Source: Lyngbya sp. HA4199-MV5
Lineage (GTDB): Bacteria; Cyanobacteriota; Cyanobacteriia; Leptolyngbyales; Leptolyngbyaceae
Length of the DNA: 64,000 nucleotides
Reading direction: 5' to 3'
NCBI GenBank assembly: GCA_019359375.1
Contig: JAHHHL010000001.1
Coordinates: 248,001-312,000 of the forward strand
The translations under genes were made by a program, and so were the position numbers. The notes beneath the pieces were generated by a model that had not been told where the DNA came from, ran no database searches, and saw only the letters and a program-made list of their open reading frames with translations. Every line of letters begins with the position of its first letter. Position 1 is the first letter of the stretch. This document shows positions 43,067 through 57,776 of this stretch, one piece after another.

Positions 43067-45754
43067 ATGAATGCCGAAGCGTTCTTGAATCAAGGGTTAG
43101 CGAAGGCGCAAAAAGGTGACTACAAGGGAGCCATTGCCGACCTGACCGAAGCCATCCAGCTTTACCCCAAGTATGCCGGGGCGTTTTTGCATCGCGGGAA
43201 TGCGCGGCTGGCATTGCACGACCACAAGGGCGCGATCGCCGATTTTGACGACGTGTTGCAGATCAATCCCAACATTGCCGAGGCATACATGGGACGCGGG
43301 ACAGCGCTGGCTCATGCCGGGAATAAGCAGGGTGCCGTGACAAATTTCAATCAAGCGCTTCAGCTTAAACCCAAAGCTCCGGCTGTGTATGTCCAGCGGG
43401 GCATGGTACGGGCGGATCTCAACGATCCGACTGGTGCGTTAGAGGATTTCAATCAGGCATTGCAGCTTGCACCCAACGCGGTGTCTGCTTACATTCAGCG
43501 AGGCATTGTGCGATCGGCCACAAACGATCCATCAGGAGCGCTAGAAGACTTCAACCAGGCGCTACAGCTTGCACCCAACGCGATCGCCGCTTACGTCCAG
43601 CGCGGGATTGCCTATGCCGAACGGGGCGAACCAGAACGGGCGATCGCGGATTTTGATCAGGCGCTACAAATTAATCCCAATGCCGCGAATGTGTACGTGC
43701 AGCGGGGCATCGTGCGGGCGAAACAGAAAGATCCGTTGAGCGCGATCGCCGACTTCAATCATGCCCTGAAGCTCAACCCCAATTTTTTAGCCGCCTACGT
43801 GCAGCGAGGGTTGGTGCGATCGACGTTAGGTGATGCTCAAGGTGCCCTGGACGACTTCAATCGGGGACTCAAACTGAACCCTCACGCGATTTCGGCGTAT
43901 CTGCAACGGGGCATTGCCTGTGCCGCACTGGGCAACAAACCAAAAGCACTGGAAGACTTCAACCGGGCGCTGGAATTAGATCCTGGTTCTGTTGAGGCAC
44001 TGGTCAACCGAGGCAAAATTCACGCTGAACTGGGCGATCGAGAAGCCGCGATCGCCGACTTTACGCATGCCCTGAAGCTGAACCCCAACACCCCTAACGC
44101 CCATCTGTATCGCAGCGTGATGCAGCTTGAACTGGACGATCGCCAGAAAGCCTCCGAAGACTTCAACCTGGCGGTACAAATGTTGCCCAATGCCGCCGAT
44201 GCCTACATTGAGCGTGGGCTGTTTCGTGCTCTCATTGGCAACCACCATGCTGCCCTCGAAGACTTCAACCGCTGCCTGCGGATGCATTCGGATTCTGCGG
44301 CTGGCTACCTGCAACGCGGACTTTTGAGAACAACGCTGGGTGAACTGGACGGCGCGATCGCAGACTTCGACCAGGCGATTCGCCTTGACCCCAGTTCTGA
44401 TAGCGCGTACCTGCATCGAGGCTTGTTGAAAGCACGGCTGACCGACTTTGAAGGAGCCTTAGCCGATTTGAACTATGCCATCCAGCATGATCCCAACCTG
44501 GTCGATGCCTACATCAACCGGGGTGCAATTCACCTCAAACTGGGCAACACAGAAGCGGCTGAGGCTGATCTGCAAGCGTTGCTCACCATCAGCCCGAACC
44601 CTGCGACGGCGGCGCTCAATCGTGGGCTGGTGCTGGTCAAACTGGGTCAGGAAGAAGGCGCGATCGCGGACTTCAATCACGCGCTACAGGTTAACCCAAC
44701 CACCATCGGCGCACATCTCAATCGGGGCATCCTCCTGGCGGCTCTGAGCGATCAGCAAACCGCCCTCACCGATTTCAACCAGGAACTCAACATCAATCCG
44801 TCGTCTGCGGAAGCATTGGTACAGCGAGGCATTTTGCTGGCAGAACTGGGTGAAACCGCGATGGCGTTGCAGGATTTTGATCAGGCGCTCAAGCTCAATC
44901 CCCGCCTGCCTGTTGCCCGGTTCCAGCGCGGCAAATTGCACACTGAGGTTGGGACTCCTCAAGCCGCGATCGCCGATCTTCACCCCATTCTCACCAGCAA
45001 AGCCGCTTCCATTCCTGCCTACGTGCAGCGCGGACTGGCGCACCTGGAACTGGGCAAGCGCAAACCTGCAATGGATGATTTTGGTGAAGCCCTACGCCTC
45101 CAACCCAAATCGCCTGAAGATTATCTGTATCTAGGCATCGCGCATACCCAACAGGGCGAACCCCGCGCCACCGAGGACGATTTCAATCAAGCCGTCGAAA
45201 GCAGCCTTTATCCCGTCAAAACCTGCCTCCAGCGGGGCATTCTGCAAGCCAAACTCGGCAATAAAGTCGGCGCACTGACCGATTTTGACTACGTGGTGCA
45301 GGTGAATCCTAACTTGCCAACCGTGTATCTGCATCGCGGCATCGTCCGAGCAATGAATGCCGATACCGAAGGCGCGATCGCCGATTTCACCCAGGTCGCC
45401 CACCTCTATCCCACCTCTACCGCTACTGCCATCCATCACAGCGCCATCCAGATTATCCTGGGTGATGCGACTGCCGCAACTCAGGCGTTAGAGCAAGCCA
45501 TGCAAAACGGCACTACGTCCGCTGATGCCTTCTACCAGCGAGGCTTAGTGCGCGCAACCCTGGCAGACAATAAAGGAGCCGTTGCCGATTTTGATGCCGC
45601 GATCGCCGCCAACCCCAACTTCGCCGCCGCCTACTTCAAACGCAGCAAACTACGATCGACCTTGGGTGATCAAGAAGGTGCCGAAGTCGATACGCAACGG
45701 GTTACAGAACTCACTGCCCATCTGGTGATTGTAACCAAAGAAGCCGATCGCTGA
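43067..45754 (+). CDS. Giant tetratricopeptide repeat (TPR) protein
   Basis: An 895-residue protein made almost wholly of about 26 TPR units of 34 residues, each close to A..DF..AL.LNP....AY..RG. Examples: AIADFDQALQINPNAANVYV, GALEDFNQALQLAPNAVSAY, AIADFTHALKLNPNTPNAHL. No signal peptide, membrane segment or enzymatic domain is seen, so it is probably a cytoplasmic scaffold. The ATG at 43067 is preferred over the TTG at 43037. Many repeats contain an in-frame GCGATCGC (Ala-Ile-Ala), so HIP1 octamers accumulate here. A role is not known. Confidence 0.9.
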   Translation: MNAEAFLNQGLAKAQKGDYKGAIADLTEAIQLYPKYAGAFLHRGNARLALHDHKGAIADFDDVLQINPNIAEAYMGRGTALAHAGNKQGAVTNFNQALQLKPKAPAVYVQRGMVRADLNDPTGALEDFNQALQLAPNAVSAYIQRGIVRSATNDPSGALEDFNQALQLAPNAIAAYVQRGIAYAERGEPERAIADFDQALQINPNAANVYVQRGIVRAKQKDPLSAIADFNHALKLNPNFLAAYVQRGLVRSTLGDAQGALDDFNRGLKLNPHAISAYLQRGIACAALGNKPKALEDFNRALELDPGSVEALVNRGKIHAELGDREAAIADFTHALKLNPNTPNAHLYRSVMQLELDDRQKASEDFNLAVQMLPNAADAYIERGLFRALIGNHHAALEDFNRCLRMHSDSAAGYLQRGLLRTTLGELDGAIADFDQAIRLDPSSDSAYLHRGLLKARLTDFEGALADLNYAIQHDPNLVDAYINRGAIHLKLGNTEAAEADLQALLTISPNPATAALNRGLVLVKLGQEEGAIADFNHALQVNPTTIGAHLNRGILLAALSDQQTALTDFNQELNINPSSAEALVQRGILLAELGETAMALQDFDQALKLNPRLPVARFQRGKLHTEVGTPQAAIADLHPILTSKAASIPAYVQRGLAHLELGKRKPAMDDFGEALRLQPKSPEDYLYLGIAHTQQGEPRATEDDFNQAVESSLYPVKTCLQRGILQAKLGNKVGALTDFDYVVQVNPNLPTVYLHRGIVRAMNADTEGAIADFTQVAHLYPTSTATAIHHSAIQIILGDATAATQALEQAMQNGTTSADAFYQRGLVRATLADNKGAVADFDAAIAANPNFAAAYFKRSKLRSTLGDQEGAEVDTQRVTELTAHLVIVTKEADR

Positions 45755-50033: not shown

Positions 50034-50264
50034 GAAGGCGGAAGTTTGAGTCTTTTGCTTGAAGTTTCAAGGAACGAACTCGAAGCGCCAAGTCTGGAAC
50101 TCGAATAGTCGAGCCTCAGGCTCAAAATTCCGAGCCTAGATCTCGAAGTAACAGGTTCAGAACTCGAAACACCGAGTGCGGTACTCGAATGATCAGGCTC
50201 AAGACTCGAAGTAACAGGTTCAGAACTCGAAACACCGAGTTTGGAAGGGGAAAGTTCAGGTTCA
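50034..50264 (+). repeat. Degenerate tandem array of 21-bp units
   Basis: Eleven consecutive units of exactly 21 bases with the core ACTCGAA at offset 3 and CxGAG/CAGGTT in the second half. Units beginning at 50139 and 50202 share CTCGAAGTAACAGGTTCA, and those at 50160 and 50223 share GAACTCGAAACACCGAGT, showing a 63-base (3x21) higher-order duplication. In the frame of the unit start each unit codes for seven residues of the pattern xLExxSx, with in-frame stops after units 4 and 8. Degenerate coding remnant or regulatory array. Confidence 0.9.
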
Positions 50265-50355: not shown

Positions 50356-52476
50356 GTGGATGCCATTCTTAAGTTCTTGAGCAGCAACAAAGATGCGCTC
50401 CTAGTTGTGATTGGGTGCATTACGGTCACGCTGGGTCTGTTCACGCTGCTATTTGGCTCTGGTTTTTTGGTGGCGTTTTTCAAGTCCATTGCTGCTTACC
50501 TGCAACAGCGCCTTCGTCCCCGGATTCCACCCCTTGATACCTTTCCGTTTGAGGTGATTAAGCCCAACAGTGATGTGTTGAAAGCCGTGTTTGGCGGAGC
50601 AAAGGACAATCCGCTTGCCGATCGCAACATTCGCTATGTGCAACGGGTGGCAGATCGGGATATGCAGCAGGAGCTAGAGGCGCAGCTAGAAGAGTCTCAC
50701 TGGATCATCATCCTGGGTGAGACAGGCTTGGGCAAAACGCGGGAAGCCGCAGAACTGGCTCAGAAATATAACCGCAGGGGTTGGACGGTTCTCAGGCTGA
50801 AGCATTCGGAACTGCTGGATGAGCCGTTTCAGTTTCCGATGGAAAAGGTTGGCAGCGATCGCAAGCTGCTGTTTTTCCTGGACGACCTGAACAAGCTGAT
50901 GTATAAGCGGGGCGAACTGCTGAAAGATGACCCGCGACAGTTTCGAGATTTACCTGCCCAGGAACGATTACGCCTGACGCTGGAATACTATGAGCGCTTT
51001 TGCCGTCCCGAAGAAATCCGCATCATCGCCACTGCCCGTAATGAGGCTGTTCCTCAGTACAATGAGTCGATCAGCGAACTCGACAAGCTCGGCTTCGACC
51101 AGCATCCCAGGCTATGGCAGAAGTTTAGGCGCTATCTTCTGGTCAAACCGAGCGATGCTGCCATTGTGCAATTGATTCAAGCAACGGTAGAGCAGACGGA
51201 CATTACCGCGAACCCGGATGAGTATGCTCGTTTAGCCAGACGGAACGATCGCACCTTCCGAAATATCCAGTTGAACTTGCAAACGGCGAACGATGAGGGA
51301 CGGGCACTTACCCTGGATACCTTTCGTGAGTCGTTGCGGGAAAGCTGGGAAGCAAAATACCGCAAAGCCACACGAAAATACCCGATCGCGGCGGTCATTT
51401 ACGACGCGGTTGAACTACTGCGGGCGGTGAATGTCGAGCTATACGCTTTCACGGTCATCGCCACCACCCAAATGCTGGCAGGCGGGAATTTCCTTCAGCG
51501 GCTTCAGCGCTGGCAACCGATTCGTCGCGCCCTCCATTATTTGATCCACGACGGCAACAGCATTCTGGAACCCCGTGATGGTCAAATTGAAGCAAAGGGA
51601 ACCTCAGTAGCGGTGGCTGAAAACATTCCTCGCCTGTCGCGTCTGCTGTTGAGGTTGAGCGATCGTCATTCACAAATGCGTGCCTCACTGGGCGGCTTTT
51701 CAGTAGCAGCCTATGATCTGGAGCACTATCGAGAAAGCCTCACCAGTCTAAACAAACTCCTCGTCATCAAGCCGGATTTCCACAAAGCCTGGAACAACCG
51801 GGGCGTTGCGCTGGGCAACCTGGAGCGCCACGAAGAGGCAATTGCCAGCTATGACAAAGCGATAGCCATTAAACCGGACGACCACGGAGCTTGGAGTAAC
51901 CGAGGCGGTGCACTGGGCAAATTGAAGCGCTACGAAGAGGCAGTTGCTAGCTTTGACCAAGCGATCGCCATCAAACCGGACGACCACGAAGCCTGGGACA
52001 GCCGGGGCGTTATGCTAGGTAGATTGGAGCGCTACGAGGAGGCAATTGCTAGCTTTGACCAAGCGATCGCCATCAAACCGGACATACACGAAGCCCGGTA
52101 CAATCGGGGCGTTTCACTAATCAAACTGAAGCGCTATGAAGCGGCAATTGCCAGCTTTGACCAAGCGATCGTCATCAAACCGGACGATCACGGAGCTTGG
52201 AGCAATCGGGGGTTTGTACTGATGAATTCAGGTGATTACGAGAACGCTATACAGAGCTTCGATACGTCGCTGAAATTCCTGCCGGATGATGCTGACGCTT
52301 TTTACAACAAAGCTTGCTGTTTTGCCCTTTGGGATAAGGTTGAGGAGGCAGTTGCAAATCTGCGACGGGCAGTTGAGCTAAACCCCGACAAATACCGGGA
52401 GATGGCAAAGACGGACGCTGATTTTGATGGGATTCGAGGTGACAGGCGGTTTCAGGCGTTGGTGCCAACAGATTAA
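50356..52476 (+). CDS. Membrane-anchored P-loop NTPase with C-terminal TPRs (STAND-like)
   Basis: A 706-residue protein starting GTG (MDAILKFLSSNKDALLVVIG). A membrane helix lies at about 15-45, followed by a nucleoside triphosphatase domain: Walker A ILGETGLGKT (about residue 117), Walker B LLFFLDDLN (about 172) and a sensor-like IRIIATARNE. A helical segment follows, then six or seven TPRs (about 455-680) in which several are nearly identical (ERYEEAIASFDQAIAIKPD), reflecting recent 102-bp duplication. The layout resembles STAND signalling ATPases, some of which act in stress or phage defence; here that is inference. AGGAG at about 50342-50346 is its ribosome binding site. Confidence 0.85.
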   Translation: MDAILKFLSSNKDALLVVIGCITVTLGLFTLLFGSGFLVAFFKSIAAYLQQRLRPRIPPLDTFPFEVIKPNSDVLKAVFGGAKDNPLADRNIRYVQRVADRDMQQELEAQLEESHWIIILGETGLGKTREAAELAQKYNRRGWTVLRLKHSELLDEPFQFPMEKVGSDRKLLFFLDDLNKLMYKRGELLKDDPRQFRDLPAQERLRLTLEYYERFCRPEEIRIIATARNEAVPQYNESISELDKLGFDQHPRLWQKFRRYLLVKPSDAAIVQLIQATVEQTDITANPDEYARLARRNDRTFRNIQLNLQTANDEGRALTLDTFRESLRESWEAKYRKATRKYPIAAVIYDAVELLRAVNVELYAFTVIATTQMLAGGNFLQRLQRWQPIRRALHYLIHDGNSILEPRDGQIEAKGTSVAVAENIPRLSRLLLRLSDRHSQMRASLGGFSVAAYDLEHYRESLTSLNKLLVIKPDFHKAWNNRGVALGNLERHEEAIASYDKAIAIKPDDHGAWSNRGGALGKLKRYEEAVASFDQAIAIKPDDHEAWDSRGVMLGRLERYEEAIASFDQAIAIKPDIHEARYNRGVSLIKLKRYEAAIASFDQAIVIKPDDHGAWSNRGFVLMNSGDYENAIQSFDTSLKFLPDDADAFYNKACCFALWDKVEEAVANLRRAVELNPDKYREMAKTDADFDGIRGDRRFQALVPTD

Positions 52477-55305: not shown

Positions 55306-56145
55306 TTAAGCATTGAATTTCGATCGGGGAAACAGATGATCGCGCTCCATTGCCACCTGCAAGCCTGTTTGATGCAAGCGATCGTCCACCTGCCGCTGCC
55401 AATCTGCCAAGCATCCAGGAAACTCAGGATACTGCAATCCCCCACGCCACAGCACCAGCGCATCCTCGCCATTATCTGGGTAATAGCGCCGCCTGCGACC
55501 CGCTTCCCGAAAACCAAACTTTTGATATAGCGAAACCGCTGCCTGATTAGAGACTCTGACTTCCAGGGTTGCTCGTTCTAACCCGCGATCGTAGGCAGAT
55601 GACATCAAGGCGACCAGCAACGCTTGCCCTAAGCCTTGCCCTTGATAGGCAGGGTCGATCGCCAGCATGGTAATGTGAGCTTCTTCAAGAATTGCCCAAT
55701 AGCAGCCGAGACCGAGGAGGGGTGGGGGGGAGAAATGGGGAGTGGGGAGTGGGGAGTGGGGAGTGGGGGAGGAGAGTTTTGAGTTATGAGTTTTGAGTTT
55801 TGAGTTTTGAGTCGTGCTTTGCGCCGCTGCGCTAGAGAGTTTTGAGTTCATTCTGACTTCTGACTCCTGACTCCTGACTCCTCTCTCCTCACCCCTGTCC
55901 CCTGCTTCCCCTGCTTCCCCTGCTTCCCCTTCCCCCTCTGCTCCCCCTTCTGCCCTCTGCCCCCTGCCTTCTGCCTCTCTTCCCCCCTCTCCCTTCTCTA
56001 CAAAAACGAGCAATTCACTATTCGGACTCTCCAACTCCCGTCGATACCCTTCTAGCGTCCACATGCCACCGAAGCAGCGTCGATCGAGCGCTACAGCAGC
56101 AGGAAGTAATTCGACAGAGAGCGGCTGAAGTGCGAGAAAGGTCAC
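55306..56145 (-). CDS. rimI: RimI-like N-acetyltransferase with in-frame repeat insertion
   Basis: GNAT acetyltransferase; RimI acetylates the N-terminus of ribosomal protein S18. The 279-residue frame has the GNAT start (LDRRCFGGMWTLEGYRRELE), the acetyl-CoA loop PAYQGQGLGQALLVALM and NQAAVSLYQKFGFREAGRRR. Between VFVEK and GLGCYWAILEEAHITML lies an insertion of about 92 residues (51-142) that is not found in the family: it is a translation of the dispersed repeats (REAEGRGQRAEGG, GEAGEAGEAG, NSKLKTHNSKLS, PTPHSPLPTPHF). The frame is kept open. Activity depends on the loop being tolerated. Confidence 0.88.
   Translation of the reverse strand: MTFLALQPLSVELLPAAVALDRRCFGGMWTLEGYRRELESPNSELLVFVEKGEGGREAEGRGQRAEGGAEGEGEAGEAGEAGDRGEERGVRSQESEVRMNSKLSSAAAQSTTQNSKLKTHNSKLSSPTPHSPLPTPHFSPPPLLGLGCYWAILEEAHITMLAIDPAYQGQGLGQALLVALMSSAYDRGLERATLEVRVSNQAAVSLYQKFGFREAGRRRRYYPDNGEDALVLWRGGLQYPEFPGCLADWQRQVDDRLHQTGLQVAMERDHLFPRSKFNA
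55720..55995. repeat. Dispersed low-complexity repeat inside rimI
   Basis: About 276 bases (a multiple of three) made of GGCAGAGGGCAG / GGGGAAGCAGG / TTTTGAGTTTTGAG / GGGGAGTGGGGAGTGGGGAG words, the same as intergenic repeats here. It interrupts the conserved strand before the acetyl-CoA site. Confidence 0.9.
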
Positions 56146-56240
56146 AAAAGGTACGCTTTTGGCTCAGGATTGACAAGGCTCGATTGTAAACTAGAGATCA
56201 TATTGCACGTATGCTAGTTAACGAAGGCAGGAATGATGTC

Positions 56241-57776
56241 ATGGGATCGACTCACGCTACAGCGGTTCAGGCAACGGGTCGTCGCTATTTAAGCGAGACA
56301 GGCGGTACGTTAGCGGAGCGATCGCCTAACCAGCAATTGCTACCCCTGACAGCAACGGTCAACGCCAAAGAGCATCTAGAAATTGGTGGCTGCGATATCG
56401 TTGAGTTGGCACAGAAATTTGGCTCCCCTCTCTATATATTGGACGAAACCACCCTGCGATCGGCGTGTCGGCAGTATCGGGATGCTTTTACGCGCTATTA
56501 CCCCGGTGAATCGCAGGTGCTATACGCCTCCAAAGCCTGGAATTGTCTGGCGGTTTGCGCGATCGTGGCAAGCGAAGGCTTAGGTATCGATATCGTGTCG
56601 GGCGGCGAACTCTATACGGCACTCCAGGCAGGCGTGAGTTCGACCAGGCTATACCTGCATGGCAACAACAAATCGCGGGACGAGCTTCAATTTGCTGTAG
56701 AAGCTGGTTGCACGATCGTCGTGGATAACTGGCATGAATTGAAAACGCTGGTGGCGATCGGGGGGGAGGCAGAAGGCAGAGGGCAGAGGGCAGAAGGGGT
56801 AGGGGAGGCAGAGGGAGCAGGGGAGGCACTCAAAACCCATGACTCAAAACTCTCCCTCCACCCTACACCCCACACCCTACACCCTACACCCCACACCCTA
56901 CACCCCACCCGCATCCTCCTCCGCCTCACACCGGGCATCGAATGCCACACTCATGACTACATTCGGACGGGTAGCATCGACAGCAAGTTTGGGTTTGGGC
57001 TGGATCAGTTGGATGACGTGTTTCAATTCCTTAGCCAGCAGCCGAGTTTGTCGTGTATTGGTCTCCATGCCCACATTGGCTCCCAAATTTTTGAACTGGA
57101 GCCGCATCACGATTTGGGTGCTGTGATGATGCAATGGTTAAGCAAAGCGGCTCATTATGGGTTGCCGATTCAAGAATTAGATATTGGCGGTGGTTTGGGG
57201 ATTCGCTACACCGAAGCAGATGATCCGCCGAGCATTGACGCGTGGGTCAAGGTTGTGAGTGAGTCGATCGTCGCTGCGTGCAAAGCCCAAAACCTTCCCC
57301 TGCCAAAACTGTTAAGTGAACCGGGGCGATCGCTCATCGGCTCTGCATGCGTCACGGCGTATACTGTTGGCGGACAGAAAGTGATTCCTGGTGTTCGCAC
57401 TTACGTGACGGTCGATGGTGGCATGTCAGACAATCCACGCCCCATCACGTATCAGTCGGTGTATCAAGCAGTAGTGGCAAATCGGATGTCGGCTCCGCTC
57501 ACAGAAACGGTGACGATCGCGGGCAAGCACTGTGAGTCGGGTGACATTGTAATCCAGGAAGCCTTGCTGCCAGCGACGCAACCGGGTGATTTGCTCGTCG
57601 TAATGGCAACGGGCGCTTACAATTACAGCATGGGCTCCAACTACAACCGCATTCCTCGACCCGCCGCTGTTTTGGTGAACGATGGAGAGGCAAATCTGAT
57701 TTTGCAGCGGGAAACCTATCACGATTTGATTCGTCACGATCGGTTGCCGGAGCGATTGCAAACCCCGCATGTATGA
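56241..57776 (+). CDS. lysA: Diaminopimelate decarboxylase with in-frame repeat insertion
   Basis: Last step of lysine synthesis. From ATG 56241 it has 511 residues. The PLP lysine is in LYASKAWNC (about residue 98), the active-site loop in LSEPGRSL, and HIGSQIFELEPH and ELDIGGGLGIRY are further family motifs. Between LVAI and RILLRLTPGIECHTHDYIRT an insertion of about 49 residues (EAEGRGQRAEGVGEAEGAGE, HPTPHTLHPTPHTLHPT) is translated repeat. The frame is intact; normal LysA is about 460 residues. An alternative ATG lies at 56211. Confidence 0.95.
   Translation: MGSTHATAVQATGRRYLSETGGTLAERSPNQQLLPLTATVNAKEHLEIGGCDIVELAQKFGSPLYILDETTLRSACRQYRDAFTRYYPGESQVLYASKAWNCLAVCAIVASEGLGIDIVSGGELYTALQAGVSSTRLYLHGNNKSRDELQFAVEAGCTIVVDNWHELKTLVAIGGEAEGRGQRAEGVGEAEGAGEALKTHDSKLSLHPTPHTLHPTPHTLHPTRILLRLTPGIECHTHDYIRTGSIDSKFGFGLDQLDDVFQFLSQQPSLSCIGLHAHIGSQIFELEPHHDLGAVMMQWLSKAAHYGLPIQELDIGGGLGIRYTEADDPPSIDAWVKVVSESIVAACKAQNLPLPKLLSEPGRSLIGSACVTAYTVGGQKVIPGVRTYVTVDGGMSDNPRPITYQSVYQAVVANRMSAPLTETVTIAGKHCESGDIVIQEALLPATQPGDLLVVMATGAYNYSMGSNYNRIPRPAAVLVNDGEANLILQRETYHDLIRHDRLPERLQTPHV
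56763..56909. repeat. Dispersed low-complexity repeat inside lysA
   Basis: About 147 bases (a multiple of three) consisting of GGCAGAAGGCAGAGGGCAGA purine-rich units followed by TACACCCCACACCCTACACC units, the same words as the intergenic repeats at 467, 16196, 21386 and 26214. Placed after the second strand of the barrel. Confidence 0.9.

Follow-up and report, generated by a model that had tools for sequence, protein, structure and literature searches.

Tandem heptamer repeats have been known from cyanobacterial genomes for decades, and we know of no account of how they form or spread. In Nostoc punctiforme, small dispersed repeats (SDR) of 21–27 bases, described in 2008 by Elhai et al., are reportedly often nested in heptamer arrays. 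In Nostoc PCC 7120, 68% of the GGGGA(C/T)T repeats are reported to be intergenic, with a notable intragenic fraction, and the occurrence of heptamers in cyanobacterial genes is already published (Rehm et al., 2015; PMC4692102). Selfish DNA inserted in frame into genes has likewise been published for Rickettsia, in which the Rickettsia palindromic elements (RPE) are described as palindromic units of about 150 bp that encode a conserved peptide (PMC10969869). A literature search, thin on subscription papers, returned none on ordered heptamer composites, on a polarity rule for such composites, or on their in-frame spread among housekeeping genes.

In-Frame Heptamer Mosaics in rimI and lysA

The window, a stretch of 64 kb from Lyngbya sp. 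HA4199-MV5, contains rimI and lysA as divergent ORFs, as listed, with a gap of 65 bases (Table 1). RimI and LysA score above the curated cut-offs of TIGR01575 and TIGR01048, respectively, and the nearest solved structures to their predicted folds are E. coli RimI (5isv, TM-score 0.84 by target length) and mycobacterial LysA (1hkw, TM-score 0.85 by target length). A sequence-only reading of this DNA had described two essential genes carrying in-frame repeat inserts of 276 bases (rimI) and 147 bases (lysA). As general knowledge, lysA is fairly called essential and rimI is usually not. The insert lengths agree with the sequence, both ORFs are open, and the repeats were recovered by TRF. On the coding strand, both mosaics have GGCAGRR-type units at the start and C-rich units at the end. 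A unit similar to the 25-base unit of rimI is present in the same setting, among AAAACTC heptamers, in recN and in the related genome G006.

Table 1. Positions in the window of the rimI and lysA genes, their mosaics, and the repeat blocks within them.
Feature	Position	Strand	Remark
rimI, ribosomal protein S18-alanine N-acetyltransferase	55306..56145	-	279 aa; GTG start as listed
rimI in-frame heptamer mosaic	55720..55995 (approximate)	-	residues about 51-142, between strand 43-50 and strand 143-152; low-pLDDT block
rimI block A, GGCAGRR heptamers on coding strand (TCTGCCC on +)	55949..55984	-	TRF
rimI 9-mer block, GGGGAAGCA-like on coding strand	55898..55960	-	TRF
rimI block C, GAGTCAG on coding strand (CTGACTC on +)	55853..55897	-	TRF
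rimI 25-base dispersed unit	55813..55837	-	nested between AAAACTC heptamers
rimI block D, AAAACTC on coding strand (GAGTTTT on +)	55774..55812	-	TRF
rimI block E, CTCCCCA on coding strand (TGGGGAG on +)	55736..55768	-	TRF
lysA, diaminopimelate decarboxylase	56211..57776	+	521 aa
lysA in-frame heptamer mosaic	56763..56909 (approximate)	+	about residues 185-233; G-rich part first, C-rich part last
lysA block A, AGGCAGA	56767..56797	+	TRF
lysA block F, CCCTACA	56854..56905	+	TRF

Other tandem repeats are present in the window. A 102-base repeat of about four units is located at 51761-52211, and the 102-base period appears again at 43421-43610 (TRF); its length is divisible by three, and we guess that it encodes a repeat such as TPR. 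Tandem 21- and 63-base repeats at 50138-50264 are also multiples of three, and their units differ from the heptamers.

Dispersed and Ordered Composites

Period 7 alone is strongly enriched in these genomes. In 464 kb of the own genome, 132 period-7 arrays were found, and the same settings gave 0 arrays at periods 5, 6, 8, and 11, 12 at period 9, and 1 at period 10; three further samples contained 86, 125, and 67 period-7 arrays and at most 8 for each of the other periods between 5 and 10. The arrays thus share with the short tandemly repeated repetitive (STRR) heptamers of filamentous cyanobacteria, which were first described in Calothrix, both the tandem seven-base unit and the many dispersed copies, cyanobacterial relatives included. 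One relative of the same family (G016) is 100% identical to Pantanalinema sp. GBBB05 over the compared loci. As a DNA query, the rimI insert gave at least 66 further matches at no fewer than 39 places in its own genome, a lower bound as 40 of 840 first-look candidates were scored, and the inserts consist, as had been proposed, of the same repeats as elsewhere in the genome. Among same-strand pairs of different parts of this insert, 18 were colinear and 0 misordered; four further same-strand pairs repeat one part, and nine pairs lie on opposite strands. The recN insert matches the rimI insert with 92% identity over 107 bases.

In G006, 125 bases are common to the rimI and lysA inserts with 93% identity, and an 87-base block of this shared stretch has at least 42 matches in G006, at least 44 in G001, at least 24 in G005, and at least 21 in G000, most of them partial. 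The two copies of the block in rimI and lysA of G006 (contig C13, 19720-19805 and 20730-20816) have two differences and opposite chromosomal orientation, as though one insert were a copy of the other. Exchange between the neighbors rimI and lysA was rejected as a rule, as the partner insert of the own genome was the best match in only two of eight genomes.

Five block families, A (GGCAGRR), C (GAGTCAG), D (AAAACTC), F (CACCCYA), and E (CTCCCCA), were mapped as exact double units in four samples taken from three genomes. At least two block types were combined in 49 composites, 34 in one orientation and 15 in mixed orientation, and the order A, C, D, F, E had no violation in the 34 single-orientation composites. 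It was the first sample (16 of 22 composites in one orientation) that revealed the order, which then held in the remaining three (18 of 27). Where multi-block composites lie inside genes, the order runs with the gene in 6/6 cases; C, D, and CACCCTA contain stops when read in the other direction. The arm types of the composites are not paired at random (table 19, 3, 4, 10; Fisher p 0.0009; 36 of the 49 composites, after 13 with both arms of one skew were dropped), which favors an element with two different ends and disfavors the simplest version of the bold 3′-extension model considered below. A single fixed element does not cover everything because 15 of the 49 composites are mixed and nine part pairs lie on opposite strands. 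The heptamer units are mostly parts of an ordered composite with polarity; the earlier description of dispersed intergenic repeats holds for their identity but not for the picture of loose units.

A search for empty sites anchored 38 of 164 composites of G000 in the G006 sample, of which 21 had and 17 lacked period-7 DNA there; in the reverse direction, 23 of 63 composites were anchored, 20 of them with period-7 DNA in G000. The candidate empty sites in G006 are too diverged for a duplication or deletion to be read. Contig C93 of G000 (122446-122517; L168 2446-2517) carries paired heptamers of the type GTTGTTA and AACAACC/AAAAACT in a layout that starts G/T-rich and ends C/A-rich, and a similar sequence occupies the same place in G006.

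Polarity of the Composites

Array windows of 14 bases were labeled G-rich or C-rich at a difference of at least 3. Within 150 bp, the G-rich window preceded the C-rich window in all 107 cases (107:0; three genomes, four samples), with 37:0 in the sample where the rule was found and 24:0, 33:0, and 13:0 in the others. The ratio is 115:1 up to 300 bp, the sole reverse case lying at 150–200 bp, and the reverse order prevails beyond about 600 bp because the next composite begins G-rich. Stated as G-rich first, the rule is identical on both strands. Skewed windows outside arrays were near 50:50 in each of the four samples (e.g., 848:861), and named loci from Nostoc, Desmonostoc, Trichormus, and Oscillatoria records (L009-L062) gave 6:0. 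The sign test value of 1e-32 treats the cases as independent, which they are not quite, since some sites are common to G000 and G006. The polarity does not follow from a hairpin alone because C-rich-first hairpins pair equally well.

G-rich heptamers between genes are described as lying nearer to the 5′ neighboring ORF in an earlier study (Rehm et al., 2015; PMC4692102), and this placement is half of the polarity rule, seen at gene borders. Among 45 composites inside genes, 22 have both sides and all 22 are G-rich first, which suggests that gene borders are not the cause of the polarity. The polarity rule itself is new here.

Mosaics in Other Genes

Genes with internal mosaics were surveyed in 804 kb of four contigs (C55, C79, C81, and C85), the 64-kb window included; these contigs were picked for their length from a prior hit list and are not a random draw. 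Fourteen genes with an internal composite were found, 12 of them in the 740 kb outside the window, and a further 60 kb chosen for hits yielded three more (recN, squalene-hopene cyclase, and hpnB). Extrapolation from the 12 genes in 740 kb gives about 112 genes in one genome (95% range 58-196), although gene counts are rough because the gene caller was crude (coding share 0.69). Products assigned by family search include nagA, a copper P-type ATPase, pyrC, a PMT_2-type transferase, a HerA-like ATPase (DUF87), rsmG, a WD40 protein, a GGDEF protein, two histidine kinases, recF, and recJ; rsgA has a mosaic near its start. The in-frame mosaics of recN (G000 C79 186957-189014, L166), recF (C81 155274-156509, L221), and recJ (C85 128306-130735, L228) lie in three DNA-repair genes, which may be chance given so few genes. 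The peptides encoded by the inserts, which the sequence-only reading placed in other cyanobacterial proteins too, indeed recur in the own and related genomes.

Loops and Reading Frames Among Relatives

Each protein was used to search 58 genomes, the own included, all of which matched; the loci of 30 of these genomes were compared for each gene. The alignment with relatives proposed beforehand revealed no unique uninserted state, as the loop between fixed anchors spans 21-115 aa in RimI and 18-87 aa in LysA (30 genomes each) and is mostly short outside the genus. In the seven genomes of the genus, the RimI loop has 59, 67, 80, 82, 90, 92, and 110 aa and the LysA loop 29, 33, 41, 42, 43, 62, and 87 aa, against medians of 31 and 23, respectively, in the other genomes excluding G010. 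The RimI loop is thus enlarged in 7/7 and the LysA loop clearly in 5/7, being just slightly longer in G004 and G005 (33 and 29 aa), while loops of other relatives are mostly short, some about 20 aa. Within the genus, no two loops of one gene are equal in length and all are in frame. The picture for recN and pyrC is alike (20 loci each). Colonization of genes by dispersed repeats, as suggested earlier, stands in so far as the repeats are dispersed and lie inside genes, but it does not look recent, given this enlargement across the genus and the turnover of the loop content.

A base equals the base seven positions further on at a rate of 0.39-0.56 in six of seven RimI loops of the genus and 0.43-0.58 in four of five LysA loops of at least 40 aa, the exceptions being RimI of G002 (0.30) and LysA of G001 (0.28), which are near the quarter of plain sequence. 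Loop peptides are built from similar words (EAEGRGQ, RSQESG, NSKLKTQ, PTPHSPL) in numbers that vary among genomes, and the heptamer family and copy number at the same site differ between congeners. The rimI loop of G002 (L093) is partly filled with a different repeat, in which ASHAAP occurs several times, so this site accepts other repeats. Loop length is related to repeat count for LysA (rho 0.69) and weakly to repeat load for RimI (rho 0.40, p 0.027), each over 30 genomes and uncorrected for kinship. G004, with few counted repeats, keeps a RimI loop of 67 aa, and the long RimI loops of G018, G027, and G008 contain no hit to either of the two patterns counted. Heptamer-like DNA is also present in the rimI and lysA loops of the filamentous cyanobacterium CCP2 (L011); a frameshifted rimI in this record, suggested by a 102-aa ORF, was rejected, as the contig ends inside the array.

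By pattern match, the frame is open through the loop in 30/30 rimI, 30/30 lysA, 20/20 recN, and 19/20 pyrC loci (99/100 in total), and a separate comparison of pyrC placed both flanks within one ORF in all 20 rows. Frame closure was counted in the 42 of 99 loops with at least 40 aa, after 57 shorter ones were dropped: a stop interrupts 66 of the 84 other sense frames and 110 of the 126 antisense ones. In 41/42 loops, the first half exceeds the second in G-skew. Slippage changes the length in steps of 7, so two thirds of such changes would break the frame. Intragenic length differences relative to G006 are a multiple of three at five of seven comparable sites. For the two non-multiples, rsmG and recJ, protein alignment shows a full-length open frame in either genome, and we take their misfits for BLAST edge effects; the intergenic contrast for length change is weak (multiples of three in 15/31). 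The loops stay in frame although most of the alternative frames are closed, and this speaks for translation and against removal at the RNA level, without amounting to proof; as judged from the sequence, the inserts are probably translated as loops in RimI and LysA.

Protein Structure and RNA Folding

AlphaFold models, based on 32 sequences for LysA and 21 for RimI, predict both inserts with low confidence, in keeping with the unstructured loops proposed from the sequence. In RimI, residues 61-140 have a pLDDT of 45-58 by blocks of ten and the remainder is mostly above 90; in LysA, residues 196-228 are below 50. The LysA model is uneven (mean 75.4; five models range from 56.5 to 75.4), and some conserved loops (242-249, 405-415, and 440-445) also fall below 50. 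On these models, both inserts are probably floppy, unstructured loops. Lys108, His288, Cys441, Glu442, and Tyr470 of LysA, which we take to have roles in catalysis, are invariant in the 32 sequences.

The minimum folding energies of the inserts are -101.6 (rimI) and -58.0 kcal/mol (lysA). A hairpin function, suggested by the resemblance of the inserts to long hairpins, was rejected, as 15 of 200 dinucleotide shuffles folded as well in each case (z -1.46 and -1.45). The rimI insert has five short arm pairs of 10-23 nt with 74-92% complementarity, and a search of the lysA insert for inverted repeats found none. An Rfam search of the inserts gave no family at the gathering score and four sub-threshold matches (three microRNA families and Hsp83_3_UTR). 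Family searches of RimI and LysA listed acetyltransferase and decarboxylase-type families and no splicing domain.

Origin and Maintenance of the Inserts

Several features were read directly from the compared sequences, namely the identity of the inserts with dispersed copies, their order and polarity, the open frames, and the loops enlarged in relatives with turned-over content. The inserts probably represent a dispersed, mostly ordered composite that is tolerated in its stop-poor orientation in coding loops, with the frame kept by selection on the host protein. The composite is found chiefly in intergenic DNA and occupies loops of housekeeping proteins as well, its D block carrying the nested 25-base unit in some copies. 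It would spread through copying between sites, and its block numbers would change by slippage. Inside genes, only copies in tolerant loops that have the stop-poor orientation and a length divisible by three would survive; the frame would be kept through purifying selection on the host enzyme, and the composite would be translated as an unstructured loop without a role of its own in either RimI or LysA.

Alternatively, the arrays may be independent microsatellites that arose on the spot by slippage, their order and polarity being accidents of base composition and the in-gene ones being ordinary low-complexity loops. The variation of heptamer family and copy number at the same site between congeners, the variable loop lengths even in repeat-poor genomes, and the ASHAAP repeat of G002 all fit this reading, but the polarity of 107:0 and the colinearity of 18:0 disfavor it strongly, as do the 125-base block common to rimI and lysA of G006 and the 25-base unit nested in AAAACTC heptamers in rimI and recN alike, and we regard it as quite unlikely. 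A role for the loop peptides, such as that of flexible linkers tuning the enzymes, is unlikely too: although much of the genus keeps enlarged loops, and G004 with its few counted repeats has a RimI loop of 67 aa, neither loop sequence nor loop length is conserved, the same peptides occur in unrelated proteins, and other relatives have loops of about 20 aa.

Removal or skipping of the insert before the protein is finished, whether by splicing, ribosomal bypass, or intein-like excision, is very improbable. Both inserts can fold, but not clearly better than shuffled sequence, and they match no RNA family at the gathering score; a skipped insert would not need the open frame seen in 99/100 loci of the four genes. 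Removal at the RNA level, which the sequence-only reading had named as the outcome that would overturn it, is further disfavored by genus loops that all differ in length and are all in frame, with the other frames mostly closed. The G-rich-first rule might reflect how the elements are built: by analogy with telomere addition, G-rich heptamer tracts would be added to both 3′ ends of a DNA break or nick, and the ends would then be joined. Such addition and joining would leave G-rich sequence on the left and C-rich sequence on the right, whichever strand is read, between and inside genes, and we consider this origin unlikely. If it were true, coding loops would be places that tolerate repair scars, past breaks could be read from the genome, and this record would furnish proteins with sequence.

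With a polarity rule and a block order, the formation and spread of heptamer repeats can be put to the test. Judging by the coding copies, conserved enzymes may gain new protein sequence from dispersed repeats, in roughly a hundred genes of one genome by the above extrapolation, and because the host gene constrains the frame, what becomes of such inserts can be measured.

Comparison With Known Repeat Systems

The 25-base unit of rimI and recN may be likened to the SDR in its size and its nesting within heptamers. A further likeness is found in the mitochondria of Nematomorpha, where repeats of inverted character lie in functional protein genes; the arms there are perfect inverted repeats that encode conserved protein, whereas the arms here are imperfect and the loops variable (PMC6649704). 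For comparison with MITEs, which have terminal inverted repeats and a target-site duplication, the inverted-repeat search gave none in the lysA insert, and the candidate empty sites in G006 are too diverged to show a duplication.

Like the RPE, the heptamer mosaics are dispersed small repeats inserted in frame into unrelated protein genes, to which they add a peptide (PMC10969869). They work like RPE in this respect yet lack two of the defining features. The RPE unit is a palindromic hairpin, whereas here the inserts are heptamer mosaics, of which rimI has its five short arm pairs, lysA has no inverted repeat, and neither folds clearly better than shuffled sequence. Moreover, instead of one conserved peptide per family, the peptides share words, vary in number and length, and change between genomes.

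Also close are the STRR heptamers and the G-rich heptamers studied by Rehm et al. (2015), which are likewise tandem heptamers across the genome. That paper treats a single family in the form of single arrays, with only few paired repeats reported for Nostoc (PMC4692102). Here, by comparison, several families occur mostly as ordered composites, G-rich first in genes too, and their coding copies are followed in frame across relatives.
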